From the IMG/VR virus record IMGVR_UViG_3300006917_000003, positions 1-58,644 of that record: a DNA stretch of 58,644 nucleotides. The stretch is one strand, 5' to 3'. A model generated the notes under the pieces. That model had not been told where the DNA came from. It saw only the letters and a list, made by a program, of their open reading frames with translations, and did not search any database. The number at the start of each line of letters is the position of its first letter. Positions within the stretch are counted from its first letter, which is position 1. The translations under genes were made by a program, and so were the position numbers. This document shows, in pieces, positions 2,190 to 58,296 of the stretch. This stretch comes from a virus.

Positions 2190-2195
2190 TTTGGG

Positions 2196-3687: not shown

Positions 3688-3688
3688 G

Positions 3689-21044: not shown

Positions 21045-21053
21045 GAGCGAGTC

Positions 21054-21863: not shown

Positions 21864-21871
21864 GAGAGAGC

Positions 21872-43461: not shown

Positions 43462-43644
43462 TCACTTCTTGGCGTACTTGTGGAAGCAGTAGCCAACCAG
43501 AAGGCCGAGCAGCAACACACCTACGATCGGGCCTGCGGGCAGGCGCTTGGGCGTGCGGAAGGAGTTGGGGTCGCGGTTGCTTCCAGCCAAAGCGTAGCCT
43601 TGGGTGGTGTAGCCGTAGCCGATCGGGGACTCTTGAACCATCAT
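43462..43644 (-). CDS. Small C-terminally anchored virion membrane protein
   Basis: 60 aa from ATG at 43644 behind GAGGAAGG. The first 38 residues are polar, with GSNRDPNS; residues 39-56 form one membrane helix (GPIVGVLLLGLLVGYCF) followed by HKYAKK. It has the same plan as many proteins of this operon: outside domain, C-terminal helix, short basic tail. It is the last gene of the operon. Confidence 0.72.
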   Translation of the reverse strand: MMVQESPIGYGYTTQGYALAGSNRDPNSFRTPKRLPAGPIVGVLLLGLLVGYCFHKYAKK

Positions 43645-43657
43645 GGTGTGCCTTCCT

Positions 43658-43789
43658 CTAGCGCCGCTTGCGCGACTTGACGTTCAGGCCCTTGTACACA
43701 GCGTAGGCCAGTCCAGCAAGGACTACCACGCCAGCCACGGTCAGGCCGACGTTGCGGGTGGAGATGTATCCGTTGGTCGAGTGCATCAT
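43658..43789 (-). CDS. 43-aa membrane protein of the virion operon
   Basis: ATG at 43787-43789 is followed by MHSTNGYISTRNVGLTVAG and a helix (VVVLAGLAYAVYKG) ending in a very basic tail (NVKSRKRR). The gene fits exactly between its neighbours with 2- and 13-bp gaps, which supports it despite its length. It is probably a minor membrane component of the virion. Confidence 0.7.
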   Translation of the reverse strand: MMHSTNGYISTRNVGLTVAGVVVLAGLAYAVYKGLNVKSRKRR

Positions 43790-43791
43790 GG

Positions 43792-44226
43792 TCAGTCCTT
43801 CTTGCGGAAGATGAAGTACAGCACTGCTGCCCCGCCCAGCAGCAGCGCGATGGTGGGGATGCCCCCAGACGGCGGGGCAGCAGCGGGCACAGTGGCAGGC
43901 ACCAGCTTGTCGAGAGTGACCTTGGTGACTCCCAACTTGAAAGACTCTGCCAAGTCGCTGGCAAGGTCGTCGATCGATTGGAGGCCACCACCAATGGCCT
44001 GCACCTTGTCGTTGGCTTGCCCAGCAGAGAAGGCGAAGAGCAGCCCACCAGCGACCATCTGCTTGTCTGGGATCTTGAACACGCCCGATGGCGTGTAGAG
44101 CGTCATCAGATACGGCCCGTTGAGGCGCGGTGCCAAAGCCTTGAACAGGTCAACAGTCGTCACCGTCTGCTGGGCAGTCGGATCGACCACATAGGGCTTG
44201 CCTTCGATCACAATCGCTTCAGCCAC
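43792..44226 (-). CDS. C-terminally anchored virion protein
   Basis: 144 aa from GTG at 44226. It has a soluble domain (IVIEGKPYVVDPTAQQTV, GPYLMTLYTPSGVFKIPD), a helical middle and an Ala/Pro linker. Residues about 121-139 form one helix (IPTIALLLGGAAVLYFIF) with RKKD behind it. No catalytic motif. It belongs to the run of membrane-anchored proteins from 43.5 to 47 kb. Confidence 0.72.
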   Translation of the reverse strand: MAEAIVIEGKPYVVDPTAQQTVTTVDLFKALAPRLNGPYLMTLYTPSGVFKIPDKQMVAGGLLFAFSAGQANDKVQAIGGGLQSIDDLASDLAESFKLGVTKVTLDKLVPATVPAAAPPSGGIPTIALLLGGAAVLYFIFRKKD

Positions 44227-44229
44227 GGC

Positions 44230-44865
44230 TTACTCCCCCTTCTGGTTCAAGAGCCACAGCAGCCCGCCTGCGATAGCCAGAGCAGCCAAACCGCCGCCGC
44301 CCTCTTCCTTCTTCGGTGGCGGGGGTGGAGGCGTGGCGGCGGGTGTCTTTGCTGGTGCCGCCGTGCCGATCGCATTGAACGTGGCGTCGGTCACCTGCTT
44401 GTCTTCACCCTTGGACAAGGGCAGAAGATCGACAGGGTCTTGCGGGCCAGCGAAGAGGCGCGAGAAGCGGTCGCTCTTGTTGGCTTGCGTGATCAGTACG
44501 CCGTCCGCGCCCTCGTAGAACATCCACTGGTTGGGCGCAGTCGGGGCAGACTCGATGATCCAGTTGCCGTTCTTGCCCGGGATCTTGACCACGTCAGCGG
44601 CCTTGTCGTACCCCAGCAGGTCAGCAGCCTGCTTGATCGAAAGCTCGCCCTCGTAGATGCGAACTGGCGTGCCCTTCTTGAGCGTCTTGGGCTGACCCAC
44701 GGCGTTGGTCAACAGGTCGCTGACGTACTGAACGTCCACGTCAACGGGCAGGTAGCCGTTTCGCCACTTGAGCTTGCCCGACTTGGTCGCAAACTGCGGC
44801 GCAGGCTCCACTGGGGCACCCGCCAAGAAGTGTTCGTCTTCGCTATCGTCTCCGATGCCAAACAT
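44230..44865 (-). CDS. C-terminally anchored virion protein, paralogue of the next gene
   Basis: 211 aa; ATG at 44865 has AAGGAG five bases upstream and is preferred over GTG at 44871. It shares with the following upstream gene a KKGT.VR.Y.G strand, a DLLPL.K block, an ATFN/MFDP-like segment and a poly-Gly linker before a C-terminal helix (GLAALAIAGGLLWLL). Between these, a polyproline stretch acts as a stalk. It appears to be a soluble head held above a membrane. Function unknown. Confidence 0.72.
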   Translation of the reverse strand: MFGIGDDSEDEHFLAGAPVEPAPQFATKSGKLKWRNGYLPVDVDVQYVSDLLTNAVGQPKTLKKGTPVRIYEGELSIKQAADLLGYDKAADVVKIPGKNGNWIIESAPTAPNQWMFYEGADGVLITQANKSDRFSRLFAGPQDPVDLLPLSKGEDKQVTDATFNAIGTAAPAKTPAATPPPPPPKKEEGGGGLAALAIAGGLLWLLNQKGE

Positions 44866-44867
44866 GC

Positions 44868-45482
44868 TCACTCCTTGCTGCCAAACAGCGCCAGCGCCCC
44901 GATGCCCAAGAGCGCCAAGAGGCCGACGCCACCGCCGCCCTTGTCGCCCTTGTCGCCGTCTTTCGTACCCGAACTCTTGCGCTTGGGCTTGCCAGCAGCA
45001 TCGAGCACCGGGAACCCTTGGGCGTCGACCTCGTAGACGGCGGGGTCGAACATGCCCTGCGCGTTGGCCGCGTTGTCGGTGGTGCCAGCCTTGTCGATCG
45101 GCAGCAAGTCCTTGGGGGCGAGCTTGGCCGACAGCATCCGCTTGCGGATGGTGGGCAGAGCCGCCGCGTAAGCAGGCGAGGACATGAGCGCCTGCGCCTC
45201 TGGGGTGTCAGGGTAGGCTGCCCAGTAGCCGCCGCCCGCAAGCTCGACCAAGTACTGGTCGTTGGTGGGGCTTTGGATCGTAGCTTGATCCGTCCACGGG
45301 ATGGTGCCCACATACACGCGCACGATGGTGCCCTTCTTGATCACCGTGTCCGGCTCCGCGCCGCCCCAGTTGGGCAGCGTCTTGGCGGGCGTATCTTCAG
45401 CCACGACGCCGTTCGACCAGCCGAACTTGCCGACGTTGAACTTGGTGCCTGTCGTCGCTTCGCCGTTGCCTGCCAGCATCAT
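44868..45482 (-). CDS. C-terminally anchored virion protein with glycine stalk
   Basis: 204 aa from ATG at 45482 in a TGATG overlap with the preceding gene. The N-terminal domain is beta-rich (NVGKFGWSNGVVAED, KKGTIVRVYVGTIPW, YLVELAGGGYWAAY), then helical (APKDLLPIDKAG). A Lys/Asp/Gly stalk (GDKGDKGGGGVG) precedes the terminal helix (LLALLGIGALALFG). Diverged paralogue of the next gene downstream; the two may occupy equivalent positions on the virion membrane. Confidence 0.72.
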   Translation of the reverse strand: MMLAGNGEATTGTKFNVGKFGWSNGVVAEDTPAKTLPNWGGAEPDTVIKKGTIVRVYVGTIPWTDQATIQSPTNDQYLVELAGGGYWAAYPDTPEAQALMSSPAYAAALPTIRKRMLSAKLAPKDLLPIDKAGTTDNAANAQGMFDPAVYEVDAQGFPVLDAAGKPKRKSSGTKDGDKGDKGGGGVGLLALLGIGALALFGSKE

Positions 45483-45808
45483 CACACACCCCGCTTGGCC
45501 AAGCACCACGCCTCGACGGCGGGGATCGGCCCTGAGAACTTGGCCACCTGCTCACCTTGCGCTGCCCAGCCGCCGCCTTCTTTGGCGAAGGTACGCACAG
45601 GCCGCACGGTGGTATAGTACCCCGCATCTCCCTTGCCCACCAGCCCCCAAAAGTTGTGACCGAGGGCGTAGCGCCCCCAGCCAGACTTGGCGGCTGCCTC
45701 TGCCAAGCACTGCTTGGGGTCGAGGCCGTAGCGCGGGCACACGGTGGCCGCAGCGGGCACCAGCGCCCGCAGGAACGCCTCCTGCTGCTGGCGGGTGGGC
45801 TGGTTCAC
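45482..45808 (-). CDS. Glucosaminidase-like (FlgJ-type) protein with altered catalytic position
   Basis: 108 aa from GTG at 45808 (GTGA overlap). CLAEAAAKSGWGRYALGHNFWGL matches the helix-turn of beta-N-acetylglucosaminidases (usual form A..ESGWG..ALG.N.FGIKG). The usual catalytic Glu before SGWG is Lys here, with a Glu six positions earlier. The continuation (TFAKEGGGWAAQ, FSGPIPAVEAW) fits the family. Either the enzyme is rearranged, or it is an inactive glycan-binding subunit. Four cysteines are spread over the protein. Confidence 0.65.
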   Translation of the reverse strand: MNQPTRQQQEAFLRALVPAAATVCPRYGLDPKQCLAEAAAKSGWGRYALGHNFWGLVGKGDAGYYTTVRPVRTFAKEGGGWAAQGEQVAKFSGPIPAVEAWCLAKRGV

Positions 45809-46656
45809 TTGCTGCCCTTCTTGAGCAGGGCAGGCCCAAAGGTGACCGCAGCGTAGATGACCGCGCCCCACAAGAGGTACTTGGTCAGTTCGCCAAAGGT
45901 GCCGCTGAACGACTTGGCGATGTTCTCTTCTGCGTCCTTCTTGAAGATCGGGGCCTTGGTGGCCAGCTTGGCGCTACCGCGCTCCCGCAGCAGCTTGATC
46001 AGCCGCGCAGGCGCACCAGCCTTTACCAACGCCTTGAAGGCGTCGTCGTACTGGTTGCCGTAGGAGTGGTCGCCACAGCCTTGCGGAGGGTCGGCCTCCA
46101 GCACGGGGGCCGTCCACCACTTCTTGACCGACGAACCAAAGCCGAGGTCATCCTCAGACGGCGTGCCGTTGAGCCAGTGGTTGATCGTGCAACGCTCCCA
46201 GCCCTTGGGGTCGAGGTAGTAGTCCACCTCCACCATCGTGGCCAGAATCATGGGGCCGTCCAAGGCCATGGGCAAGTCAGTGCCTTGAGCGCGGCTTTGG
46301 CCTGCGTACTCAGGCGACTGCGCCTTGGCCCGCGCCTCTGCCCACTGCTGCTCCAGCACTTCGGCGCGGCCCTCTGGGGTCGTGCCCTCTGGGGGGTTTA
46401 CTGCACCAGCCTGCACGCCAGCCAGCGACCCGCTCAGGGGCACAGCCCGTGACACCAAAGGTGCCATGCTGGGCGTCTGCGCGGCTTCGCGCAGGTAGTA
46501 GGGCTGCTCGCCCACCGTGGGGTTCAGCGGGGCAAGACGGGGCAGGACGACGGCGCGGTTGGCGTAGGTCGAGTGCGGGGTGGTGTAGCTGCGGTAGTTG
46601 TACGGGTCGCCGCACTCGCAGCCGCTCAGGGCGTAGGGGTCGTCGTGCAGCATCAT
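45805..46656 (-). CDS. C-terminally anchored virion protein
   Basis: 283 aa from ATG at 46656. It starts with a Tyr/Cys-rich segment (SGCECGDPYNYRSY), followed by Pro/Thr-rich extended sequence, a mixed domain with Trp and Cys (DPKGWERCTINHW), a helical bundle and a final helix (LLWGAVIYAAVTFGPALL) with KKGSK. It has no enzyme motif. It may be a spike-base or membrane-linked minor protein. Confidence 0.7.
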   Translation of the reverse strand: MMLHDDPYALSGCECGDPYNYRSYTTPHSTYANRAVVLPRLAPLNPTVGEQPYYLREAAQTPSMAPLVSRAVPLSGSLAGVQAGAVNPPEGTTPEGRAEVLEQQWAEARAKAQSPEYAGQSRAQGTDLPMALDGPMILATMVEVDYYLDPKGWERCTINHWLNGTPSEDDLGFGSSVKKWWTAPVLEADPPQGCGDHSYGNQYDDAFKALVKAGAPARLIKLLRERGSAKLATKAPIFKKDAEENIAKSFSGTFGELTKYLLWGAVIYAAVTFGPALLKKGSK

Positions 46657-46665
46657 GGTGGCACC

Positions 46666-47043
46666 TTACTTGCGGGAGCCAAAGTAGTAGCCCACCGCCA
46701 GACCTACCACGAACAGTGGGATCGAGATCGTCATCACCGACTTCTGGACGCTGCCCTTGACCGTCTCGATCGTCTCTTGGCCCTTGGGCGAGGCGACGAA
46801 CTTCTGGCCGGTCTTGCTCAGTACGTCGGAGAAGAACTCCGTGCGATCCGCACGCTCCTTCGATCCGGCAGGGCCACCTTGGATGGTCTTGTTGATCGCC
46901 TCTGCAAGGGCGTTGGCGATCGGGTCGCCGCCCAGCGGGTCACCCGGGCCAGCCAAGTTGCCCGCCATGTAGCCACGCGGGAAGTTGGTGCGCGGAGGGG
47001 CTTGGGCAGGCCCAAGGATCTCGACGTAGTCAGGCTGGATCAT
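46666..47043 (-). CDS. C-terminally anchored virion protein
   Basis: 125 aa from ATG at 47043, overlapping the upstream stop by 4 bp. Extended Pro/Gly-rich N-terminus (GPAQAPPRTNFPRGYMAG), then helical (ANALAEAINKTIQGG) and a terminal helix (MTISIPLFVVGLAVGYYFG) with SRK. Same plan as its neighbours. Function unknown. Confidence 0.7.
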   Translation of the reverse strand: MIQPDYVEILGPAQAPPRTNFPRGYMAGNLAGPGDPLGGDPIANALAEAINKTIQGGPAGSKERADRTEFFSDVLSKTGQKFVASPKGQETIETVKGSVQKSVMTISIPLFVVGLAVGYYFGSRK

Positions 47044-47993
47044 CGCTTCTCCCCTTGCATGACGTAGCCGACGAACGCGGCAGGGTCAGTGATGTGCGGC
47101 ATGTGGCGGCGAACGTAGCGCATCTTCTTGCGGAAGGTGTCAGCGCCGGCCCTGTGCATGGTCTGGATCAGGTGTCGCTTACCCGCCTTGGTCAGGCCGG
47201 GGTTCTGCTTGGCCGACTCACGCTTCTTGCTGTACTCGTCAGCCGCCTGCTTGGCCTTCTCTGCCGCGTGCTTGGCACCCGCGCCGGCTGCGCGAGCCAG
47301 CGAGTGGACGCTCGCCCGCACCGTCTCCGACCGCCCATAAGCGTAAGCGCCGCCGGCCAAGAGCGCGGTGGTGAGCCACGTCGGGTTGCGCTTGGGGTTG
47401 CGACGATAGGGCGCTGACACCGACGTGTAGCCCAGCCGCTTGTTGGCCGACACCTTGTCGGCCCACTCCTTGGCACCCTCGTAGGTGGCAAACTTCAACT
47501 CGCCAGTGTAGTCGCCGGAAAGCCACCTAGTCGTCTTGCCAAGGTCTTGGACGTATGTGACCGCCCACGGGTAGATACGCTTCATCGCTTCATCGTATTC
47601 GTCGTAGTCGGGGTTGCGGTGCTTGGCATCGCGCTTCTCGACCAAGTGCGCCACCGGCAGGCCCACGGCCTCGCGGCGCTCGATCTCGCGCTCCAGCGAG
47701 CGGCCGGGGTTCTTGCGGGTCTTGAGGGCGTACACCTTGCGAACTCGGCTCTCGATCTCTGGCCAGCGCGAGGCAGCCACGCCCAAGTCGGCGGTCCGGC
47801 CAAGGTACACGCTATCGGTGGAGTCGCCCACCCTGCCGGGATGCGGCAGGAACACATACCAGCCGCGATCGTCGCCGTGCCGGCTGTCGTTGCCGATGTA
47901 GCCAAAGGTGATGCCGGGGAGTTCCTTGGACAGGTGCCCGATGGCGTCACTCAGCGAGGCGAGCGACGAGGGGTTGCGCTTGTACTTGGACAT
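47040..47993 (-). CDS. Multi-module virion protein with [R/K/Q]NP boundaries
   Basis: 317 aa from ATG at 47993. NP motifs occur at RNP 6-8, KNP 94-96, RNP 126-128, RRNPKRNP 197-204 and QNP 263-265, cutting the chain into modules: a beta-rich one (GWYVFLPHPGRVG), a small module with FATYEGAKEWADKV, a hydrophobic/helical one (TTALLAGGAYAYG with an Ala/Lys helix), and a basic C-terminal domain (LTKAGKRHLIQTMHRAG). The last resembles the segment after an RNP in the next protein (LTKTDKAVI). Role unknown. Confidence 0.72.
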   Translation of the reverse strand: MSKYKRNPSSLASLSDAIGHLSKELPGITFGYIGNDSRHGDDRGWYVFLPHPGRVGDSTDSVYLGRTADLGVAASRWPEIESRVRKVYALKTRKNPGRSLEREIERREAVGLPVAHLVEKRDAKHRNPDYDEYDEAMKRIYPWAVTYVQDLGKTTRWLSGDYTGELKFATYEGAKEWADKVSANKRLGYTSVSAPYRRNPKRNPTWLTTALLAGGAYAYGRSETVRASVHSLARAAGAGAKHAAEKAKQAADEYSKKRESAKQNPGLTKAGKRHLIQTMHRAGADTFRKKMRYVRRHMPHITDPAAFVGYVMQGEKR

Positions 47994-48012
47994 GGTCTTC
48001 CTCGCTGTCGGC

Positions 48013-49623
48013 TCAGTAGTCGTTCGCCTCGTAGCTCATGTATCTGGGCTTGAATCCCGCCTTGAGCGCAGCGAGATACTCCTTGAGCGTCTTGCCGTGG
48101 GCCTTGGCTTCCAGTTGGAAGGCCACCAACCCGGGATCAGGAGGCGATGCAGTGATCCAATCTGGCTTGTCTGCTGGCTTCAAGGTGAAGCGGGTGGCGT
48201 CCTTGCCACCATAGGAGCCTCCCCGACCGACCTTGTCTGCCTTGGTGCGCGCCGTAAGCTCGTTGACCGGCTTGTCAAACTCCAGCCAATTATCATCCCA
48301 GCCAAGGTAATCGCTTACTTTCCAACTACTAGCCTTGCCAAGATCTCGTTTGGGCGGCACCTTGGCCTCTCCACCAAAGGAGAAGCCGTAAGCCAGCGGG
48401 GGGTTCTTGCGCTTGCGGGACTTGGTGTACCCAACGTGGGCGTGAAGGGGCAACTGCCAGCGGTGCTTGGCGAGCTTGACGGCGCAGGAGGTGACGGCAC
48501 GGGCCGGCGGCGGGGGAACGTGCCACCGCTTGCCGATCAGGATGGTGCCGCACTCGCTGACCGACCGCGACGGCTCGGCGTCGAACAGCGACTCCTGCCG
48601 CTTGGACGCCTTCTTCTTGCCGTTGCGCTGCAAGCCGCCCATGGCGCGGTGCCACGCGGGGGTCATTTCGCCGCTGGGGGCGACAAACGGGATCTGCACC
48701 GACGTGTCCCAGCCGTCTTTGCTGCTGAACTGGATGGTGTGGTCACCCACTTTCGTCACCGTGTACTTGCCGACCTTGGAGCCGACACGCAGCGGCTTGG
48801 TGTCCATGGCGTGTGCAAGCACAGCCTCTTGAAGCGTGGCGGGGTTGCGCTGGAAGCCCACCATGCTCGCGCTGGGGTTCTTGCTGGTGGCATAGTGCCG
48901 CTTCACCCACGCGGACACCGCTGCCTTGGCGGCGGCCTTCGTCGCGTGTTTGTGTGAGTCAACCGTCTCCCAAGGCGTCCAAACGCCAGACACCGCCTCG
49001 CAGCGATCAGCATGGTAGCTACCGCCCTCTCGGATGATGCGTGCCGCACCCAAGATCCCGCCTTTGCCGCGCTCGATGTAGGCGACCTCAATGCTCGCAG
49101 GAGCACCAGCCGGCGTGTGCCACTTCGTCAACTTGACGCTTGCGGGGTTGCGCTGGAAGCCCACCATGTGCGCGGTGGGGTTCTTGGCGATCCAGTTGCG
49201 CGGGGCCTCCTTGAGGACGGCCCGAATCACCACGTCGCCGGTCTTGCCGCCGGTTTCGCGCAGGTGGATCTTGTCGCCCGACCACCGTGCGATGCCGCTG
49301 CCGCCCATGTAGTTGCCGCTCAGGGTGTCGCCGTCGCTGGTCAGCAGCTTGCTGCTCGCCGCACGGTGCTCGGTGAACGCACGAATGACCGCCTTGTCGG
49401 TCTTGGTCAGGCTCGGGTTGCGCTGGAAGCCCACCATGCTCGCGCTGGGGTTCTGCGTCGTGTAGCGCATCGAGGCCATCGCCACGATCTTGCCGCTCTT
49501 GCCAGCCTCGGCCTTGGCCTCCTTGAGCGTCGTGCAGTAGCACTTGCGAGCGCCCGTGGGCGACAGGACGAGGAACTTGAACCCGTCGCGGGCGGCTTTC
49601 TTGTCGGCAGAAGTCAGGTGCAT
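48013..49623 (-). CDS. Modular protein with three copies of a 14-residue NP linker
   Basis: 536 aa from ATG at 49623. The motif (Q/K)NP(S/T)A(S/H)MVGFQRNP occurs at 57-70, 147-160 and 248-261. Between copies lie modules of about 76 and 87 aa, with a 56-aa first module containing CTTLKEAKAEA. A degenerate form (GGLQRNGKKK) is near 337 and a basic KNP near 400. The modules themselves are not alike, so this is not a simple tandem repeat. Exact conservation of the linker suggests a recognition site, for example for a protease or for assembly. No enzyme motif is seen. Confidence 0.75.
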   Translation of the reverse strand: MHLTSADKKAARDGFKFLVLSPTGARKCYCTTLKEAKAEAGKSGKIVAMASMRYTTQNPSASMVGFQRNPSLTKTDKAVIRAFTEHRAASSKLLTSDGDTLSGNYMGGSGIARWSGDKIHLRETGGKTGDVVIRAVLKEAPRNWIAKNPTAHMVGFQRNPASVKLTKWHTPAGAPASIEVAYIERGKGGILGAARIIREGGSYHADRCEAVSGVWTPWETVDSHKHATKAAAKAAVSAWVKRHYATSKNPSASMVGFQRNPATLQEAVLAHAMDTKPLRVGSKVGKYTVTKVGDHTIQFSSKDGWDTSVQIPFVAPSGEMTPAWHRAMGGLQRNGKKKASKRQESLFDAEPSRSVSECGTILIGKRWHVPPPPARAVTSCAVKLAKHRWQLPLHAHVGYTKSRKRKNPPLAYGFSFGGEAKVPPKRDLGKASSWKVSDYLGWDDNWLEFDKPVNELTARTKADKVGRGGSYGGKDATRFTLKPADKPDWITASPPDPGLVAFQLEAKAHGKTLKEYLAALKAGFKPRYMSYEANDY

Positions 49624-49679
49624 GGTCGTCTCCTTGAGCGTACTCTACAGCGGAAAGTTCAAGTGCGCCAGATGGGATC

Positions 49680-50066
49680 TCACTGGTGCAGGTGCTTGGG
49701 TCGAGGTGCGCGGCCCCGGTCGAGGTTCTGCACGTCGCGCTCGTCGTACAGGATGGGTTGGCCCAGCGCCTCAAACGCCAGCCGGTCGGCCCGCCGCTCC
49801 GCGCCACGGCGGTCAGAGTGCTCGTCGGCGGCGTGGCCAAGCTCATGCGCCAAGATGCCCGCCACGCGGCCTTCGGGCTGCTCTAGCAGCCGCTCGACAA
49901 CGTACACGGTGCGCTCGTCGGGGATGTACCAGCCAAAGTCGCGGTAGCCGCTGCGGGGCAGGTAGTGGCGATCCACCACCACCAGCCGCACGTCGCCCAC
50001 CGGGAACCGCTGTGCGAAGCGTTTCCGCAGGCGCAGGAACAGCCTGTGCGCCCCGGCCCGGGTCAT
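49680..50066 (-). CDS. Small zinc metalloprotease (HExxH)
   Basis: 128 aa from ATG at 50066. ILAHELGHAADEH gives zinc ligands His74 and His78 with catalytic Glu75; GAERRADRLAFEAL supplies Glu90 as a likely third ligand, a minimal gluzincin-like pattern similar to ImmA/SprT-type domains. The N-terminus is basic and helical. No signal or membrane segment. Next to the protein with the triple NP linker, it is a candidate maturation protease. Antisense or host-directed roles cannot be excluded. Confidence 0.75.
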   Translation of the reverse strand: MTRAGAHRLFLRLRKRFAQRFPVGDVRLVVVDRHYLPRSGYRDFGWYIPDERTVYVVERLLEQPEGRVAGILAHELGHAADEHSDRRGAERRADRLAFEALGQPILYDERDVQNLDRGRAPRPKHLHQ

Positions 50067-50068
50067 GG

Positions 50069-50512
50069 TCAGTCCCGCAGAGCGAAGAACGCGGCAGCGG
50101 CGATGCCCACAGGCAACAGCCAGCCCATGCCGCCCTTGTCCTTGCCAGCGACGTAGTTGTCCAGCGCCTTCTTGACCGCATCGCGGAACGCCGTGGCGCT
50201 CTCGACCGTCCAAGCCGCGCCCATGGCAGTGGCCTTCTGGGTGTCGTAGTCGGCCTGCTTCAGCGCACCCGCAGTGATCAGCGTGGCAGCGTAGCCGTCA
50301 GCTTCCGCGATGATAGCGGGGATCGGATCGTAGAAGGTGGGCTTGATCCCAAACTTCACTTGCGCTTCTGACTGCGAGACGGTCTGCTTCTCGGGGGTCT
50401 TGAACTCGATCTCCTTCTGGATCTCAAGGGCCGACTTCTCGCTCGTCTTCTTCGGAGGAGCGCCCGCCAAAGCGTGGCTGTAGGAACCGTAGTTGTCACC
50501 TTCAAGCATCAT
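50069..50512 (-). CDS. C-terminally anchored virion protein
   Basis: 147 aa from ATG at 50512. The N-terminus is polar with a Lys/Glu helix (KKTSEKSALEIQKEIEFK), the middle helical and alanine-rich, and the end one helix (GGMGWLLPVGIAAAAFFAL) with RD. It follows the large 975-aa gene by 8 bp. Function unknown. Confidence 0.7.
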   Translation of the reverse strand: MMLEGDNYGSYSHALAGAPPKKTSEKSALEIQKEIEFKTPEKQTVSQSEAQVKFGIKPTFYDPIPAIIAEADGYAATLITAGALKQADYDTQKATAMGAAWTVESATAFRDAVKKALDNYVAGKDKGGMGWLLPVGIAAAAFFALRD

Positions 50513-50520
50513 TGGGAACC

Positions 50521-53448
50521 TCACTTCTTGCTCTGGGAGTATGCCACAGCGCCGCCAAGGAGCAACCACAACCACGGGAAAGGCTTCTTTTCTTCTTCGG
50601 AGATAACGAGCTTTGTCGCCACCTCTTCGTTCTTCTTGATCGTCTCCGATACAGCGGGAGGGATTGGCAGATTGTAGTCTTGGCCCAGCGCCTGCAATGC
50701 TTCGCCGGATCCAGCAACGTAGTCAAGGGCGTTTTCCACCTGCTCCTTGGTCTTGTCGTTCTGCTCCTTGGTCTCCTCGGCCTTCGCTTTCTCCTTGTCG
50801 GGCATGAGCGGGACGACGACGATCGTGCCGCCGCCAAGGTTGAGGCTGATCTTGTCGTCCTTGTGCTTGCGAGCCTCCCCCAAAGCCTTGCTCGACAGGT
50901 CCAAGTTCGACAGCACACCGCCCTTGTCGGTGGTGTTGTCTAGCAGACGGTTGCGCCGCGCACCGCGCAGACTGGCAAGCGCCGCCATCTTGGCCTGCAA
51001 TTCGCTAATCTTTGCCGACACGGCGTTGAGTGCGGCAATCGCCGTCTGGTCGCCCGCGTCGACTCGCTCCTTGAGCTTGGCGTACTCCACCAGCAGTTCG
51101 TTGAGCTTGTAGGCCAGCGAACCCTTCTTGGGATTCTTGGCGCACTCGGTCATGGTCTGCTTGTAATAATCGAGCTTGGCTTGCGGGTCGGTCAGCGTCT
51201 TGGGCGGGTCGGGGATGCTGCACCCGTACAGTTCGATTGCCATGTCGTTGAGCGCCACGATCATGTCCTCGGACAAGTCTTGAGACTCGCTTGCCAACTG
51301 CGAGGCCATCATGCCCAAGAGCAGTTGAGACTTGACCTCGCTCCGCGCATCAACATACGCCTTCTGCGGCTCGGTCAGTCCAGCCGTCTGAGCCTTGGCC
51401 TCTTCGGTAGCCTGCTTGTGCAGTTCCATCACCTTGTCGGCCACCAGCTTGAAGCCAAGCGGTATCGGCATGGGTTTGCTCTTGTCAGGCTGCCACGCAT
51501 AGAGCTTGGCCACGTTGCCACTCAGCTTGCTTGCGCGGGGTGGGGTGAACACTTTACCTGCAAAGAAGTCGGCCTTTTCGCTAATGGTAACAGCCATCTC
51601 TAGCTGCTTCTTGGTGTAGGTGGGGACAACGATGCTCTCGACCGGCCACGCGCCCATCATCTCCAGCAGCTTGTCTGGGTCTAGCTTCTCGCTGCCAAGG
51701 CAGTCCTTGTTGATCTGGGCAACACGGGATTGGAAGTTGGCGTAAGCAGTGGTGCCTTTGACTTCGGAGTACCACTTGTTCACCAGCAGCGTCAGCTTGG
51801 GTGCTACATCGGTGATCACCTTGCCTGACGGGGTCGTGTACGGTTCGTAGGTCCAGCCGACCTCCATCGGGGGCAAGAAGCAGACGAACTCAATCGCTGC
51901 CACCAGCATATCCCGGGCAGTCTTGACCTTGGCCCACGGGCCACCCTCTTCCTTGACGATGGGGTAGGTTGGCTTGTTGGGGTCGGTGTTGTCCTTCTTG
52001 GCGTAGAGAGAGGCTTGCATCAGCGTGAGGCGTTTGGCGTCTTGTGCAATGCGAATCAAAGGCAGAATAATGTCGGCCACTTGGTGAGGCGTTTTGGCAA
52101 CGCCGCCATACTCGCTTGACCACTCGGGATCTTCAGACAGGCCCTTCCAGATGAACATACCCAGCGTCTTTTCGGAGTACAAGCGATTGGTCTCGTCCTC
52201 GAACGGCGGGTGGAAAGCGGGTGGGCAAGCCCCCTTCTCTGGGCAGACCGGGATCTTGGCTCCCGGCTGCTTGGTCTTGAAGGCGTCCACGAACGGCTTC
52301 CCGCCGATACGATCCCACTGGTGGTGCAAGAAGTCGGCCAGAGCAATCGACGGCTCGATGTACTCGGCGTTTGCGCTCGCGGCCAGCTTCTCGTAGCCGA
52401 TCGATGCGACCGGCACAGACAGCCCGGGGAGCGTCTCGCCCCACTTGTCAGCCGGCACGTCCCAGCCAGAGCCTTGCACAGCTGAAAGCGTACCAGAGAA
52501 GAGAGGGTTGGTGGTCACGACCACGTTGGCGTCGCTGCCCTTGTAGGCGTACAGCGAGTGCAGCTTATAGTCGGCCAAGCCCGGGACGCTTGCACCGTAA
52601 ACTAGCGCCTGCTTGTTGCCGCTAGGGTTGTACTGCAAGTAGGGCATGTAGAGATCGGCAATCGGGAACTCCAGCGAGTCCACGCTCACCATCTTCTTGG
52701 CGTCTTGATCGTACTGCTGAATCGTGATCGGCTTTGCGACCTTGGGGTCGCATGCGACAGGGCCAAGCCACTGCACAGCGTTGATCTTGCTGAACGCCTC
52801 CGACAGCAGGAAGCCGATCCCGCCAGCTTCGCCAGCAACGGTCACCTGCGCCTTCATGTACTCAACTTCAGCCGCCTTCGCGTTCTTGACCAGCGTAGGG
52901 ATGCTCGATACCACGTTGCGCCAAGTGTCGCCAGTCAGCGACCCCTTGGGCGGGAGCCACGACAGCGTCTGGTCCACCAGCTTCTGAACCTGCGCTTGGG
53001 TGCCGTTCGGCCCCGGGTAGTCTTGCCAGTTGCAAGCCAGCGCGTAGACGAGGTTGAGAAGTTCCCAGCACCGCAAGCGGGTCTGGAACGCCAGCAGGTC
53101 AAACGCCCGCTTGTCGGCGGCTTCAGACACGATGCCGTAGAGGTCAACGCCCGGGGCTTGGCCGCTCTTCTGCGTCAACGGATTGAAGGGTGCAAGGTAC
53201 TTGGCCAGCGACACTGCCGACAGTGCCTGCATGGCCTTGGGCGAAAGCACGGCTGCCAGCTTGGCTGCATCCTCGGGCTTCAAGCCAGTCGGCAGGGCGT
53301 CGGGTGTCGAAAGGATCTCCTTGCCACCGATCGGCAAGTAGGTGTCGTACACGTCCTTGACGACGCCGCCTGCGCCAGCACCTGCGTCTGCGCCCTTGCC
53401 CCCGGGGGGCAAGCCGTTCAAGTTCCCCTCGTTGTTGAACAGCAACAT
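50521..53448 (-). CDS. Largest virion-operon protein, C-terminally anchored (975 aa)
   Basis: The first 90 residues are Gly/Ala/Pro-rich. A long mixed domain follows, with strands and Tyr/Pro patches (KPITIQQYDQDAKKMVSV, DLYMPYLQYNPSG), a Cys pair (PVCPEKGACPP) and helical segments from about 560. Residues 700-900 are coiled-coil-rich with few cysteines. The end is a helix (PFPWLWLLLGGAVAYS) and QSKK. No Walker, protease or glycosidase motif is seen. Size and single anchor suggest a spike, vertex or DNA-delivery protein of the virion. Codons in the last 300 bp are somewhat more A/T-rich. Confidence 0.75.
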   Translation of the reverse strand: MLLFNNEGNLNGLPPGGKGADAGAGAGGVVKDVYDTYLPIGGKEILSTPDALPTGLKPEDAAKLAAVLSPKAMQALSAVSLAKYLAPFNPLTQKSGQAPGVDLYGIVSEAADKRAFDLLAFQTRLRCWELLNLVYALACNWQDYPGPNGTQAQVQKLVDQTLSWLPPKGSLTGDTWRNVVSSIPTLVKNAKAAEVEYMKAQVTVAGEAGGIGFLLSEAFSKINAVQWLGPVACDPKVAKPITIQQYDQDAKKMVSVDSLEFPIADLYMPYLQYNPSGNKQALVYGASVPGLADYKLHSLYAYKGSDANVVVTTNPLFSGTLSAVQGSGWDVPADKWGETLPGLSVPVASIGYEKLAASANAEYIEPSIALADFLHHQWDRIGGKPFVDAFKTKQPGAKIPVCPEKGACPPAFHPPFEDETNRLYSEKTLGMFIWKGLSEDPEWSSEYGGVAKTPHQVADIILPLIRIAQDAKRLTLMQASLYAKKDNTDPNKPTYPIVKEEGGPWAKVKTARDMLVAAIEFVCFLPPMEVGWTYEPYTTPSGKVITDVAPKLTLLVNKWYSEVKGTTAYANFQSRVAQINKDCLGSEKLDPDKLLEMMGAWPVESIVVPTYTKKQLEMAVTISEKADFFAGKVFTPPRASKLSGNVAKLYAWQPDKSKPMPIPLGFKLVADKVMELHKQATEEAKAQTAGLTEPQKAYVDARSEVKSQLLLGMMASQLASESQDLSEDMIVALNDMAIELYGCSIPDPPKTLTDPQAKLDYYKQTMTECAKNPKKGSLAYKLNELLVEYAKLKERVDAGDQTAIAALNAVSAKISELQAKMAALASLRGARRNRLLDNTTDKGGVLSNLDLSSKALGEARKHKDDKISLNLGGGTIVVVPLMPDKEKAKAEETKEQNDKTKEQVENALDYVAGSGEALQALGQDYNLPIPPAVSETIKKNEEVATKLVISEEEKKPFPWLWLLLGGAVAYSQSKK

Positions 53449-53456
53449 GGCGGCTC

Positions 53457-54113
53457 CTACCCAAGACCTTTGAAACCCTTGGCGACGTACTGCTTGTAGG
53501 CAGCTTCCATCTTGTCGTCGTACCCGCGCTGGCCCTTGCCGTTGTAGCCCCGGGCAAACGTTGTCCAGTCGCCCTTGCGGGCAGCGTCCTCCAGCCCCTT
53601 GTTCTGCACGAAGTCGAAGAAGCCACGGATCTGTGCCTCCTCGCTGGTCGAGTAGGCGTCAAACATGGCTTGCACGGTGGGGAACTTCACCAGCTTGTGG
53701 TTGAAGCCCATGATCTGGGCCGACCCCATGCTGATCGACTTCATTGCGGCCTCGCGGTCAAGAGCAGCGGCGCGGGCAAAGTTGTCCCACTCGGCCTTCT
53801 GGCCAGCACGCACAACGCCAACATCCTTGCCGCCTGAGTACTCGCGGAAGACGTGCGGCTCAAAGCGAATGATCATGCGACCGTCTTTGCCAAAGCCCTT
53901 GCCGCCAGACTCCACAGTGAAGATTGCCAGCGCCACGGCCTCGGGGATGCCCCGCTCGGCTGCCAACGCCCTGATCTGCTTGATCCGCTCTTCCTTGCTC
54001 AGGATCTCTGCGACCATCTCCTTGACCTGCTTGCCATAGGTGACCACCAGCAGCAGCGCCGCGCCACCCAGCGCCCACCACAACCATGGCTGGACTTCTG
54101 GATTGCGCTTCAT
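53457..54113 (-). CDS. N-terminally anchored N-acetylmuramidase
   Basis: 218 aa from ATG at 54113. It starts MKRNPEVQPW, followed by a membrane helix at 11-25 (LWWALGGAALLLVVTYG). The enzyme domain has AIFTVESGGKGF with catalytic-type Glu68, MIIRFEPHVF, ISMGSAQIMGFNHKLV and FVQNKGLEDAARKGDW, the signature of the phage N-acetylmuramidase family (DUF3380-type). It hydrolyses the glycan backbone, probably during entry as a virion-bound enzyme. The RNP is directly before the membrane segment. Confidence 0.85.
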   Translation of the reverse strand: MKRNPEVQPWLWWALGGAALLLVVTYGKQVKEMVAEILSKEERIKQIRALAAERGIPEAVALAIFTVESGGKGFGKDGRMIIRFEPHVFREYSGGKDVGVVRAGQKAEWDNFARAAALDREAAMKSISMGSAQIMGFNHKLVKFPTVQAMFDAYSTSEEAQIRGFFDFVQNKGLEDAARKGDWTTFARGYNGKGQRGYDDKMEAAYKQYVAKGFKGLG

Positions 54114-54114
54114 A

Positions 54115-54969
54115 CTACCGCCCGTGCAGCTTGGCGGCGGCGTCCTTCATGCTCAGACGCTCGCCGTCGATCACGGCGTAGCCCTTGGACAGCTTACGCA
54201 CGCGGTGGGAGCCAGCCTGCACCGTCTTGCCGATCGGCAGTCGGGAAAGCATCGAAGCGAAGATCTTCTCCTCTTCCTTCTCATGGGCGAGGTGGGATTT
54301 GGACATGCCGTTGCGCTTCTTGGGATTCAGCACAGCCGGGACGTAGCGCGGGTCGGGGTTGCGGCTCTTGTAGCCGATGGCTTCGTAGACCTGCGCTTTG
54401 GTCATGCCACCCTTGAGGTAGCTCTTCCAGCACGACTCGTAGTAGTCCCGCTTGATGTCGCCAGAGTAGCCACGGGACAGCTTGCTCTCCTGCTCGTTGA
54501 TCGCGGCCCGCACGACAGCCCGGTCTCCAGCGGACGGCTGGTTGAGCGGATTCTGGCTCATGTACCGTTCGGCTTCAAACTTGCTGACCACCCCGCGCCG
54601 TTGCAGGTACGCCAGCGCCGCATTGAATCGCTCTCGGGCGTAGGTGTCGCGCTTGAGGAAGTCCCGCATGGCCTCGCCTTGGCGGCGACTCTGGGAAAGG
54701 GTAGTCAGCGCGTTTCGCGCCTCCTGCAAGGCTACACGGGGATCTAGACGCTCAATACGCTCCCAAGAGTACTCGATGCCAGTCTTGGTAGGGTTGCGGC
54801 GCTTCTTGGGGCCGCAGTGCGGGTTGCCGCACGCGCCCGCGCAGCCGCAGCCGCCGTTGCGCTTCTTGGTCTTGCGGAACTTGAAGCCGCCTTCCACCTG
54901 TTTGACCTCCGCGATGGAGTCGCACTGGTAGGCTTGGCCGTTGGGGCTGTGGGCGATGAACTTGGCCAT
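54115..54969 (-). CDS. Basic protein with Cys-rich knuckle and RNP motifs
   Basis: 284 aa from ATG at 54969. Residues 1-36 form a small beta-alpha module (MAKFIAHSPNGQAYQCDSIA). A basic Cys/Gly cluster (NGGCGCAGACGNPHCGPKK) follows, then RRNP. A long helical, arginine-rich domain, another SRNP near 218 and a C-terminal basic segment (GSHRVRKLSKGYAVIDGERL) complete it. Zinc or metal binding by the cluster is likely. Overall basic charge suggests contact with DNA or lipid head groups. Function unknown. Confidence 0.7.
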   Translation of the reverse strand: MAKFIAHSPNGQAYQCDSIAEVKQVEGGFKFRKTKKRNGGCGCAGACGNPHCGPKKRRNPTKTGIEYSWERIERLDPRVALQEARNALTTLSQSRRQGEAMRDFLKRDTYARERFNAALAYLQRRGVVSKFEAERYMSQNPLNQPSAGDRAVVRAAINEQESKLSRGYSGDIKRDYYESCWKSYLKGGMTKAQVYEAIGYKSRNPDPRYVPAVLNPKKRNGMSKSHLAHEKEEEKIFASMLSRLPIGKTVQAGSHRVRKLSKGYAVIDGERLSMKDAAAKLHGR

Positions 54970-54978
54970 GGCAGACTC

Positions 54979-55968
54979 CTAGCTCGACTTCTTGTTGCTC
55001 GACAAGACCAGCAGCAGCACCACGCCGCCTGCGACGTAGGGCAGCACTGAGGCGGCATCGCTCTTCTTGTCGTCTCCAGACTTGCCCGCAGCGGCAGCGG
55101 TGCTGTTGCCCACCAGACCGCCCGACTTGACCTTGAACGCCTGCTCCAGCCACGCCTCTTCGCGCTTGGGGTTGGGGCCAACCATGGCGAGGTACTTGTC
55201 GATGGTGCCAGCAGGCACGGAACTGATCCGCTTGTTGCCGTCGACTGCACCAGCGAGCTTGATCGGCACCCCAAACACGTCCTTGTTCGTGCCCTTCTGC
55301 GGCACGATGCTGGGCATACGGGTGCCCACCATCTGGGCATAGCCTGCCGCTGCTGCGGCTTCGTAGGGCTTGGCCCCGGCTGCAACCGCCTTCTGGTAGA
55401 TGAAGTCAGCGAGGCGGCTGGTCACGTTGAGGTCAGCGCCCATGAGACTCAGCACCTTCTCCCACAGCCAGCCCAAGATGGTGTCGCGGCCTTGCTTGAG
55501 GTCTGTCGCTGGCGAGCCGGTCGGCTTCATGCGGTAGGCGACCGCCACCATGGCGTCCTTGAGTGCATCCATGAAGACGGTGCCCTTGGCGTCGTTCATG
55601 GCTGCCAACACGCTGTTGGCCTGCGCTTCAGGCAGGTAGGTGATCACGCCTTCTGCACTGGACTTGACCGTCCAGTTGGCCTGCTCAACGATCCATGCCG
55701 CCATGTCGGCCAGCACGTTGAGCACTTCGCCCAGACCGGGGAGGGCCTTGTCGAGGTACGGCTTGATCACCGTGCCGCCCTTGTCCACCAGCCCGCCGAT
55801 GATGCCAGCGCCAACGCTGCCCGGGATGAACGCCTGTGCGGCCTCCGTGCCCAGACCCTCCAGCGTCGGGGGGCCTTGGTGCGTCAGTTGCTGGGTGTTG
55901 CCCACATACGAACTGACCGGCATGGAGTGCTTGGGCGCTTGTGCTGGGTGCAAGCTGGGGACGATCAT
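54979..55968 (-). CDS. C-terminally anchored virion protein (329 aa)
   Basis: ATG at 55968 has GGAGG six bases before it and overlaps the upstream stop (TGATG). Hydrophobic and Ala/Gly-rich from about residue 45 (GSVGAGIIGGLVDKGGTV), with amphipathic helices in the middle (FMDALKDAMVAVAYRMK) and an NPKR motif near 268. A Ser/Asp/Lys linker precedes the final helix (LPYVAGGVVLLLVL) and SSNKKSS. Possible membrane-shaping or pore protein; not recognised. Confidence 0.7.
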   Translation of the reverse strand: MIVPSLHPAQAPKHSMPVSSYVGNTQQLTHQGPPTLEGLGTEAAQAFIPGSVGAGIIGGLVDKGGTVIKPYLDKALPGLGEVLNVLADMAAWIVEQANWTVKSSAEGVITYLPEAQANSVLAAMNDAKGTVFMDALKDAMVAVAYRMKPTGSPATDLKQGRDTILGWLWEKVLSLMGADLNVTSRLADFIYQKAVAAGAKPYEAAAAAGYAQMVGTRMPSIVPQKGTNKDVFGVPIKLAGAVDGNKRISSVPAGTIDKYLAMVGPNPKREEAWLEQAFKVKSGGLVGNSTAAAAGKSGDDKKSDAASVLPYVAGGVVLLLVLSSNKKSS

Positions 55969-56327
55969 CACACACCTCCCGCCGCGAGGGCGGTCGCCTT
56001 GTAGTACTCCAACGTGTGTGGCTCTGTGTCCGCTGGTGGCCCCATCGAGAGTACCTTAGCACGCACCGTCTTGGCTACGGCTTCCAGATCTTCAACACGC
56101 ACCTTGCTGGCAATCTCCAGCACCCAGCCGATCGGCAGGCCCGCAGCCGCCGACACCATGGCCACCGTCTCGTACTTCTTCTGCTGCTCAGGGTCGACGG
56201 GGCGCGGCGGGGGCACTTGGTCTTTGGCGTAGGCCCGCAGCATGAGGTCTTGATACCAGTTGGGTCGCGTGGCCTTGAGCAACGCGAACCCAACCGCACC
56301 GATGATCAGCCACGTCCGCAGCTTCAC
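55968..56327 (-). CDS. N-terminally anchored virion protein
   Basis: 119 aa from GTG at 56327, directly after the preceding stop. A membrane helix at 5-19 (TWLIIGAVGFALL) is followed by a polar, proline-containing stretch (DQVPPPRPVDPEQQKK) and two helices with hydrophobic faces (AMVSAAAGLPIGWVLEIAS). Possible minor membrane protein. No motif. Confidence 0.68.
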   Translation of the reverse strand: MKLRTWLIIGAVGFALLKATRPNWYQDLMLRAYAKDQVPPPRPVDPEQQKKYETVAMVSAAAGLPIGWVLEIASKVRVEDLEAVAKTVRAKVLSMGPPADTEPHTLEYYKATALAAGGV

Positions 56328-56699
56328 TTACGACCTCGCCGCAGTCCACAGCTTGACTTGGCCTGCGCCAGCCTCGCCGTTGGTCACCACCACGTCGTAG
56401 ACCTGCCCTATGCCGTTGTTGGTGCCCAAGCCGTAGCGCAGCACAGTCGGGGTGTTGGCTGGGATCGCTGCTGAGATCGGCACGGTCACTGCGATCGTCT
56501 TGCTGCGTGCGTAGAGCACCAGCGAGACGGATTGCAGCGCCACCGTGCAAGTCAGCATGACGGTGATCTGCGTGGCGTGCAGCGACGACACCTCTTCGAC
56601 CACCGTAGTAGCCTGCCCAATGCCAGCCGCAACAGCGAGCGGCCCCGACGCTTCGATCACAAGCGGCGTGCGGATGTCTTGCCCAAACGCGCCTGCCAT
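56328..56699 (-). CDS. Small beta-rich virion protein
   Basis: 123 aa from ATG at 56699, adjacent to the previous stop. It is almost charge-free and rich in Val, Thr, Ala and Ser with alternating strands (TQITVMLTCTVALQSVSLVL, KTIAVTVPISAAIPANTP), suggesting a single beta sandwich. It groups with the three other beta-rich genes upstream as a candidate surface or spike subunit. Confidence 0.68.
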   Translation of the reverse strand: MAGAFGQDIRTPLVIEASGPLAVAAGIGQATTVVEEVSSLHATQITVMLTCTVALQSVSLVLYARSKTIAVTVPISAAIPANTPTVLRYGLGTNNGIGQVYDVVVTNGEAGAGQVKLWTAARS

Positions 56700-56700
56700 C

Positions 56701-57195
56701 TTAGGCCTCCCTGTAGCCCAGCCGCTCGCCTTCCCACTCTTCGGGCCGGATGCGACCGTAGATCTGGGTGTAGACCAGCGCGTTCTGTGCGCTTGCGTCA
56801 AAGTTGACAATACGCAAGGACACTTCCGTCACGCCCGAGAGCGCCACCGAGAAGTTGAGCTTGCCTTGGAACAAGGTCAGCAGACCCGACACATCGCGCT
56901 CCAGCAAAGGGAAGCTGGAAGCACCATTGTCGTCCACATCCACACCCAGCACAGGGAAGGGTCGGATGCGGAGGAACGCCTGCATGCTGGCGAGGCCAGC
57001 AGAAGCGTTGTCGGGGCGGATCTGAAAGCTCACTTGAGCCTCGTCCGCGAACCGCGCAAACAGCGCCTTGCCACGCAGGGCCGTCTCGTATCCCTCCAGA
57101 CGCGGGCGCAGCACCATGGTCGAGACAATGGTGGAGCTTTCGCCGCCTGCGGGAAGCGTGAAGGTGGAGGCTTGCTCGTAGACCAGTGCCAGCAT
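56701..57195 (-). CDS. Beta-rich virion protein
   Basis: 164 aa from ATG at 57195, overlapping the upstream stop (TAATG). It alternates strands throughout (STIVSTMVLRPRLEGYE, AQVSFQIRPDNASAG, KLNFSVALSGVTEVSLRIV), with little helix and no cysteine. A jelly-roll is plausible. It lies between the paralogous pair and another small beta protein, so it may be part of a penton or spike complex. Confidence 0.7.
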   Translation of the reverse strand: MLALVYEQASTFTLPAGGESSTIVSTMVLRPRLEGYETALRGKALFARFADEAQVSFQIRPDNASAGLASMQAFLRIRPFPVLGVDVDDNGASSFPLLERDVSGLLTLFQGKLNFSVALSGVTEVSLRIVNFDASAQNALVYTQIYGRIRPEEWEGERLGYREA

Positions 57196-57746
57196 TATGC
57201 CCCCGTGTTGAGGTAAGCGACCTTCCACGTCAGCGTGACGCTCACTGCCAGCGGGCCGGTGTTGGTCACCAGCAGCCGCCGCTTGAGCTTGTCGCGCCAC
57301 GTCTCAGGGGCGGGGAGGATCTGAGGCGACCAACCCACACCAAAGACGTTGCAGAGCGCCGAGTCTTGGATCTCAAGGAAACCCTCGACCAACTGCTGCC
57401 GCACCAGAATGTAGCCCCACGTCTGCGTAGGCAACTGCTGGGCGATGCCCGAGCCAAAGGCCAGCCCGGGGGTGGCGATCGCGTAGCGGCTGAACAGGAT
57501 GCCGTTACGACCACCAGTCAAGTCGAGTGCAACCTCTTCGGTGTTGGTCGGGTCGAACGGCGGAACGCCTGACCCTGCGGGCAGTTCGACCGTCACCGAT
57601 CGATCCTGCACCTGCACATAGCCCGCAGTGGGCCAGCGCGACGGATCATCGCAAGAGTCGGGGTTCGACTGCGGATCACCGTAGAGCCAGCCAGTGTACT
57701 GCTCACCCAGATCGAACTGCGCGAACGCAGGAGCTACCCAGCGCAT
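57195..57746 (-). CDS. Beta-rich virion protein, paralogue of the upstream gene
   Basis: 183 aa from ATG at 57746 behind GGGAGG. It shares with the neighbouring 176-aa protein W.YGD..SNP near 20-28, W-P.(A/S)G.V near 42, VFGVGWSP in the middle and the ending LTWKVAYLNTG. Beta-strand-dominated, with two cysteines. Tandem duplication followed by divergence suggests hetero-oligomeric capsomers or spikes. No family match can be stated from sequence alone. Confidence 0.74.
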   Translation of the reverse strand: MRWVAPAFAQFDLGEQYTGWLYGDPQSNPDSCDDPSRWPTAGYVQVQDRSVTVELPAGSGVPPFDPTNTEEVALDLTGGRNGILFSRYAIATPGLAFGSGIAQQLPTQTWGYILVRQQLVEGFLEIQDSALCNVFGVGWSPQILPAPETWRDKLKRRLLVTNTGPLAVSVTLTWKVAYLNTGA

Positions 57747-57765
57747 GGTCGCCTCCCTGAGCCAC

Positions 57766-58296
57766 TTAGCGGCCCGTGTTGAGGTAGGCGATCTTCCACG
57801 TCATGAACACGTTGACCGTGACGCCCGTGAGGTTGGTCACGGCGATGTTGCGCTGCTGGTTGCCCTGCCACCGCTCAGGAGCCGGGAAGCAGTGCGGCGA
57901 CCAGCCAAAGCCAAACACGTTGACGATCGGGGTCGACTCGATCTCCACCACACCATCCAGCCGAGTCTCGACCACGTTGACGTAGCCCGAGATCTGGTTG
58001 GGAAGCACCTTGGAGTTCGGAGTGTCTGCCGTCGTCGGGATCACAATGCACGTCCGCGTGTACACGATGACGTTCTTACCACCGCCGAGGTTCAACGACT
58101 GGGTCACCGTCGCGTTGTTAGCCACGCTGAAGAAGTTCAGCGAGCGATCAACAAACGTCACCTGCCCCGACACCGGCCACTTGTCCGGCTGGTCGTAGTA
58201 GGGGTTCGACTGCCGGTCGGCGTAGATCCAGCGGGTGTACGCATCCCCAAGGTTGGGGCCGTAGGGGGTGAACAGAGGGTCGATGTAGCCAGCCAT
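57766..58296 (-). CDS. Beta-rich virion protein, paralogue of the downstream gene
   Basis: 176 aa from ATG at 58296 behind AGGAGAAG. It carries the same landmarks as the next gene: WIYADRQSNPYYDQPDKWP, a strand-rich centre (SGYVNVVETRLDGVVEIES), VFGFGWSPHCFPAPERW and the ending MTWKIAYLNTG. It is separated by about 90 bp from the join-spanning shell protein. Soluble, beta-rich, no anchor. Candidate for a major or minor shell component. Confidence 0.74.
   Translation of the reverse strand: MAGYIDPLFTPYGPNLGDAYTRWIYADRQSNPYYDQPDKWPVSGQVTFVDRSLNFFSVANNATVTQSLNLGGGKNVIVYTRTCIVIPTTADTPNSKVLPNQISGYVNVVETRLDGVVEIESTPIVNVFGFGWSPHCFPAPERWQGNQQRNIAVTNLTGVTVNVFMTWKIAYLNTGR

Follow-up and report, generated by a model that had tools for sequence, protein, structure and literature searches.

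In the Sphaerolipoviridae and Matsushitaviridae (SH1, HCIV-1 and P23-77; kingdom Helvetiavirae) the virion has two single jelly-roll capsid types and an internal membrane, and the genome, of 17-31 kb, includes an A32/FtsK-type packaging ATPase. The double jelly-roll phages (PRD1, PM2, Autolykiviridae, the Odin group and FLiP) are tailless, with an internal membrane in the cultured ones, and have a single double-barrel capsid protein. The putative prokaryotic double jelly-roll viruses of one large survey have genomes of 7-18 kb (PMC5894146), and the Odin group and FLiP, which have no packaging ATPase, have small genomes (PMC5894146, PMC6260650). The phage SSIP-1 is described in reviews as icosahedral, with an internal membrane, T=49, and two capsid types that are perhaps single jelly-rolls (PMC6260650, PMC6356626). 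Its record holds a circular double-stranded DNA of 43.8 kb with a late block annotated gp44-gp45-gp46. To our knowledge, SSIP-1 is the only large tailless membrane phage. Here, we analyzed the IMG/VR virus record IMGVR_UViG_3300006917_000003 over its whole length of 58,644 bp (the window) and, within it, a minus-strand operon, the late block, for which a preliminary description had proposed a tailless, membrane-containing virion of a large, undescribed type.

We consider it reasonably likely that the late block is a virion operon and that the genome belongs to a tailless phage with two capsid proteins, an internal membrane and circular double-stranded DNA; it also carries an integrase. The lineage is probably uncharacterised, with SSIP-1 as a cultured precedent of similar build. 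The ends of the window form an exact 123-bp repeat (bases 1-123 are identical to bases 58522-58644), and the genome therefore closes into a circle of about 58,521 bp, as had been proposed; 93 genes were predicted on the circularised sequence by a codon-based gene call. The late block runs from 4870 across the contig join down to 43462, so that 58388-625 and 653-4870 are part of it. The interval 43462-58296, initially taken as the operon, cut it short and left the best capsid candidates outside. A search with gene 92 as query recovered a single relative, G001, a circular genome of 58,052 bp with a 127-bp terminal repeat, and the late blocks of the two genomes are syntenic. Protein identity between them is 57-68% for genes 6, 5, 3, 2, 1, 93 and 92, 40-52% for genes 91-89, and 26-34% for genes 87 and 84. 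A conserved core beside a fast-evolving protein of 975 amino acids is what would be expected of shell and receptor-binding parts, respectively. The contigs are broken in different genes, inside gene 93 in the window and inside the gene 84 homologue in G001, and these sites are therefore assembly breaks in circular or permuted DNA and not fixed termini.

The best capsid candidates are genes 1 and 93, which stand behind gene 2, coding for a membrane-type protein. Genes 1 and 93 are adjacent and paralogous (34% identity, hhalign 99.9%), and the pair is kept in both genomes. The same is true of a second paralogous pair, genes 92 and 91 (39% identity, hhalign 100%). A kinship of the 1/93 pair with 92/91, 90 or 89 was considered and rejected, as they are unrelated by sequence; the 92/91 pair is also unrelated by sequence to 90 and 89. 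The preliminary description had counted four tandem beta-rich genes. By a crude beta-propensity score, 92, 91 and 89 rank high and 90 does not. An AlphaFold2 model of gene 1, built with three sequences in the alignment, was beta-rich and of low to middling confidence, with a predicted local distance difference test (pLDDT) of 60.3 and a predicted template-modelling score (pTM) of 0.64. Its top matches in the PDB were single jelly-roll capsids, those of porcine circovirus (PCV2 Cap; E 0.0016, probability 0.93) and of Sulfolobus polyhedral virus 1 (SPV1; E 0.0028, probability 0.97); P23-77 VP17 and satellite panicum mosaic virus ranked lower. BFVD gave 22 matches with E <=0.001, and the named ones were mostly capsid proteins; an unnamed one, I1ZBH9 (probability 1.00), has 211 residues, a length that SSIP-1 gp46 shares. 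These comparisons suggest that genes 1 and 93 probably encode capsid proteins of the single jelly-roll type, a fold that rests on a low-confidence model. Structure prediction of the beta-rich proteins had been recommended in the preliminary description; of the four genes, 92 alone was modelled, and the result was weaker (mean pLDDT 54.7), with a mixture of small beta proteins as matches.

Membrane anchors were scored by Kyte-Doolittle hydropathy (17-residue window, cut 1.6), counting as C-terminal anchors those proteins with one C-terminal segment and a tail of at most 14 amino acids. Nine proteins in 43462-58296 pass (genes 72, 73, 74, 75, 76, 78, 79, 83 and 87), and gene 84 falls narrowly under the cut while its G001 homologue passes, which bears out the earlier count of at least ten proteins with a C-terminal helix and a short charged tail. 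As for the two N-terminal anchors also claimed, gene 85 passes the cut and gene 88 was recognised by eye only. About eleven membrane-anchored proteins appear to be encoded in one operon. Among proteins of at least 80 amino acids, those with a C-terminal anchor number 7 of 24 within the late block and 1 of 51 in the rest of the window (Fisher p=0.001); comparing the window with lambda, P22 and T7 combined gives 8 of 75 against 1 of 116 (p=0.003). The corresponding figures are 10/71 for G001, 5/52 for SSIP-1, 2/12 for PM2, 2/37 for SH1, 1/24 for P23-77 and 0/19 for PRD1. The C-terminal anchors in the window exceed chance, and the habit is common to SSIP-1.

The layout invites comparison with known viruses. 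Membrane-type gp44 of SSIP-1, followed by gp45 and gp46, parallels genes 2, 1 and 93 by position and hydropathy; both genomes are circular double-stranded DNA of tens of kb, and several late or virion proteins of both end in a C-terminal membrane segment with a short charged tail. SH1 has the same arrangement, with the membrane protein VP12 directly ahead of VP7 and VP4, so gene 2 occupies the position of SSIP-1 gp44 and of SH1 VP12. In P23-77, which is circular and carries a virion lysozyme, VP16 and VP17 are adjacent. There are also differences. Genes 1 and 93 are paralogues of similar size, whereas the large capsid protein of the Sphaerolipoviridae and Matsushitaviridae consists of two stacked barrels, and there is no sequence similarity to these families; the double jelly-roll phages have one double-barrel protein in place of two smaller ones, and those tested, PRD1 and PM2, gave no sequence match to the window. 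Since the layout is alike but the virion proteins lack similarity and no FtsK-type ATPase was found, the genome cannot be filed in any of these families.

A narrower form of the same interpretation is that the window is a true member of the SSIP-1 lineage, of the same family or order, that has diverged past sequence recognition. Consistent with this are the circular double-stranded DNA, a similar genome size, two candidate shell proteins encoded behind a membrane protein, the presence of several proteins with C-terminal anchors, NP-type motifs in gp41/gp44 and the match to I1ZBH9, equal in length to gp46; the window has both the SSIP-1-like gene order and the C-terminally anchored late proteins, a likeness of architecture only. 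However, the SSIP-1 virion proteins showed no similarity to the window by tblastn, phmmer or hhalign, all hhalign pairs staying below 10% probability, and the region of the sigma factor was the only convincing match. The counterpart of the SSIP-1 virion ATPase gp40 was not found in the window, which is larger (58.5 kb) and encodes a family A DNA polymerase, a P4-type primase-helicase and a type IB topoisomerase domain of its own. When gp46 was used as a query for relatives it returned SSIP-1 alone, and there is therefore no bridging genome between the two. We regard membership in that lineage as unlikely. The earlier statement on the far smaller genomes of known tailless membrane phages is contradicted by SSIP-1, with its 43.8 kb and the same C-terminal anchors.

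A different possibility is a tailed phage in which divergence has made the genes for terminase, portal, capsid and tail unrecognisable. The replication genes do resemble those of tailed phages, and the best match of the DNA polymerase (27%, full length) is a metagenomic myovirus, MW202816. This virus was rejected as a relative, being an ordinary myovirus with terminase and sheath. Targeted six-frame searches of the window and G001 for FtsK, portal, HK97 capsid and TerL ATPase, with E up to 10, found no match, nor did a further terminase family in the window at E 0.001. Protein scans with Pfam, PHROGs and NCBIfam (best 25 families for the whole set, with the late genes additionally scanned singly) revealed no terminase, portal, HK97 capsid or tail genes, and tape-measure, sheath and tube were not recognisable. 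A 'Terminase_5' match in Pfam came from a helix-turn-helix protein at 9397-9654 and was rejected. The match of gene 22 to a 'minor head protein' PHROG, which might be counted for a tailed phage, is due to its kinase domain and was also discarded, the gene lying outside the late block. A large terminase would have to be several hundred amino acids long and contain Walker motifs. Only four proteins have a Walker A motif with known context, namely two SF2-type helicases (a RadD-like one at 4942-6294 and another at 12318-14069), the P4-type primase-helicase (7061-8689) and the zeta-like kinase encoded by gene 22 (20154-21044), and no Walker A protein is left unexplained. As a positive control, 10 structural proteins of MW202816, which is divergent, of similar size and was chosen as the source of the best match to the window DNA polymerase, were scanned against PHROGs in the same way. 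Families were matched by nine of them, including terminase (9e-65), portal (3e-82), major head protein (6e-68), protease and sheath; a lack of sensitivity is therefore an unlikely reason for the missing genes. The large terminase, portal and HK97-fold capsid by which Caudoviricetes are recognised were thus not found in the window, in agreement with the earlier statement, which had named these genes as the findings that would speak against a tailless virion. Together with the many C-terminal anchors, foreign to the lambda, P22 and T7 controls, these results make a tailed phage improbable.

We give a similarly low probability to an enveloped or pleomorphic virus with the anchored proteins in an outer membrane and no icosahedral protein shell. 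Single-segment membrane proteins are indeed numerous, and a budding virion would need no packaging ATPase. Against this, there are two conserved paralogous pairs of soluble beta-rich proteins, the gene 1 model resembles icosahedral capsid proteins, and the muramidase, together with further enzymes that cut the wall, points to entry through a cell wall and to its lysis. A satellite or phage-plasmid that borrows a foreign capsid, with the late block serving cell-surface or conjugation-like functions, would fit a capsid gene not identified by sequence, the integrase and the missing known packaging motor, but is very improbable given that 58 kb is large for a satellite, gene 1 has no plasmid match, no late-block Pfam or PHROG match indicates conjugation, and the block is conserved as a unit in G001.

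The tailless membrane phage is therefore the best supported of these interpretations, the form of its virion being inferred, and several points weigh against it. Only two genomes of its group were found (the window and G001). An A32/FtsK-type ATPase is present in nearly all double-stranded DNA members of this lineage, and none (A32/FtsK-HerA, PF01580) was found in either genome with E up to 10; our reading does not account for packaging, no ATPase for it being recognisable. The gene 1 model is weak, with a mean pLDDT of 60, template-modelling scores of about 0.3 and no PDB match under E 0.001, and hhalign gave no relationship to virion proteins of SSIP-1, P23-77, SH1, PM2 or PRD1. Scans of viral contigs with capsid, shell, acidic-protein and integrase queries, and with a degenerate DNA pattern of the gene 1/93 motif, gave no relatives beyond G001. 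Genes 84, 92, 5 and 2 had no match by tblastn among 50,697 phage records, and scans of genome contigs gave no match to the window queries, so that there is no host or provirus lead.

If the genome does encode a tailless membrane virion, its assembly can be outlined as follows. The basic and hydrophobic gene 2 protein (40 K/R versus 8 D/E over the whole protein) would tie the DNA to the vesicle. The many C-terminally anchored proteins would sit in the internal membrane and position the capsomers, a role proposed for the VP10-like proteins of HCIV-1 and HHIV-2; VP10 itself, with its likely C-terminal membrane helix, has been named as a candidate for positioning capsomers on the vesicle (PMC6414509). 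Together with gene 2 they may organise the membrane vesicle around or ahead of the DNA, and the products of genes 1 and 93, probably single jelly-rolls, would assemble upon it into the main icosahedral shell, a two-capsid-protein lattice. Genes 92/91 and 90/89 may supply further shell, penton or spike-base proteins. During entry the cell wall would be opened by the anchored muramidase of gene 85; the variable gene 84 product could be the vertex or receptor protein, with plus-strand genes 70-71 possibly host-facing too.

More tentatively, these genomes may represent a new family of 58-kb tailless membrane phages with two paralogous single jelly-roll proteins, in which circular DNA is packaged with no virus-encoded FtsK-type or terminase motor, either by assembly of shell and membrane around the genome or with an encoded helicase as the motor; we hold this to be doubtful. 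The novelty lies in the sequence family, in a size of 58 kb and in the absence of any recognisable packaging ATPase. The expression 'large, undescribed type' was an overstatement in that SSIP-1 had already set the precedent for size and layout. Overall, the observations of the preliminary description were confirmed in part, and its interpretation is partly supported. If our interpretation is correct, two more circular genomes of 58 kb would indicate that this architecture scales further and is not confined to one hypersaline isolate. Should a packaging ATPase be truly missing, the usual motor would be dispensable for enclosing a genome that far exceeds those of FLiP and the Odin group in size. 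Pipelines keyed to terminase, portal and HK97 markers would miss such viruses. The genes of the late block are listed in Table 1.

Table 1. Genes of the late block in order of the operon, with positions in the window and predicted properties (identities are to the G001 homologue unless stated otherwise).
Gene	Position	Strand	Amino acids	Properties
6	3689..4870	-	393	First gene of the late block; no family; identity 65%
5	3013..3687	-	224	Transglutaminase-like core (PF01841, E=9e-4, 19.9 bits, under the Pfam cut-off of 23) and C-terminal hydrophobic segment; candidate virion protease or cross-linker; identity 63%
3	2196..2954	-	252	N-terminal part very acidic; identity 67%
2	1430..2086	-	218	Strongly basic N-terminus, hydrophobic stretches; candidate DNA-binding membrane protein of inner vesicle
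1	653..1348	-	231	Major capsid candidate A; identity 67%
93	58388..58644 (C-terminal part) and 1..625 (N-terminal part), split by contig end, across circular join	-	252	Major capsid candidate B; paralogue of gene 1
92	57766..58296	-	176	Beta-rich shell candidate; paralogue of gene 91; identity 68%
91	57195..57746	-	183	Paralogue of gene 92 (39%)
90	56701..57195	-	164	Conserved; no family
89	56328..56699	-	123	High beta propensity; no family
88	55968..56327	-	119	N-terminal hydrophobic segment (by eye); identity 57%
87	54979..55968	-	329	C-terminal anchor
86	54115..54969	-	284	RNP motifs between modules
85	53457..54113	-	218	N-terminal anchor and N-acetylmuramidase domain (PF11860, E=7e-41); candidate virion-borne lysozyme
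84	50521..53448	-	975	C-terminal hydrophobic segment; fast-evolving, identity 26-27%; candidate vertex or spike protein
83	50069..50512	-	147	C-terminal anchor
82	49680..50066	-	128	M48-like metallopeptidase (24.2 bits, cut-off 20.3)
81	48013..49623	-	536	Modules joined by repeated NPSASMVGFQRNP-like linkers (D12)
80	47040..47993	-	317	Modules linked by RNP
79	46666..47043	-	125	C-terminal anchor
78	45805..46656	-	283	C-terminal anchor
77	45482..45808	-	108	Weakly glucosaminidase-like; identity 53%
76	44868..45506	-	212	C-terminal anchor
75	44230..44865	-	211	C-terminal anchor
74	43792..44226	-	144	C-terminal anchor
73	43658..43789	-	43	Single-segment membrane protein; G001 homologue R10
72	43462..43644	-	60	Single-segment membrane protein

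Several other features were observed. The late block of G001 includes an SNF2-type helicase-like gene, R87 (G001 55041-57467; L006:16041-18467), that is absent at the same place in the window. The tripeptide RNP is about 14 times over-represented in the window (23 occurrences against a mean of 1.7 and a maximum of 6 in shuffles) and occurs 17 times in G001 against 1.8 expected. In both genomes it often lies between modules of otherwise unrelated proteins (window 1430-2086, 19293-23656, 47040-49623 and 53457-54969; G001 R3, R4, R75, R84 and R85) and could be a cleavage site or packaging tag. SSIP-1 gp41 carries two ENP motifs. Gene 24 (21872-23656) has several RNP motifs ahead of a C-terminal eukaryotic-type topoisomerase I catalytic domain (PF01028, E=8e-16).

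Five peptidoglycan-cutting enzymes, some of them weak matches only, are encoded at 18592-19296, 28314-28964, 33789-34151, 45482-45808 and 53457-54113; the types are CHAP/NlpC-like, M15 peptidase, SLT transglycosylase, glucosaminidase-like and N-acetylmuramidase. Small plus-strand genes between 24609 and 40887 are preceded by at least 10 copies of a promoter-like repeat, TTGACAAGGAACGTCAG(A/T)TCTGCAATACT, behind which stands a repeated leader that ends in AGGAGGTGTGAGATG (families D1-D9), and look like a co-regulated early gene set. Genes 70-71, on the plus strand at 41656-43454, are beta-rich by composition and have no match in G001; gene 71 contains similar internal repeats and has a weak virion-protein match (phrog_692), and the two genes are perhaps an exchangeable spike.

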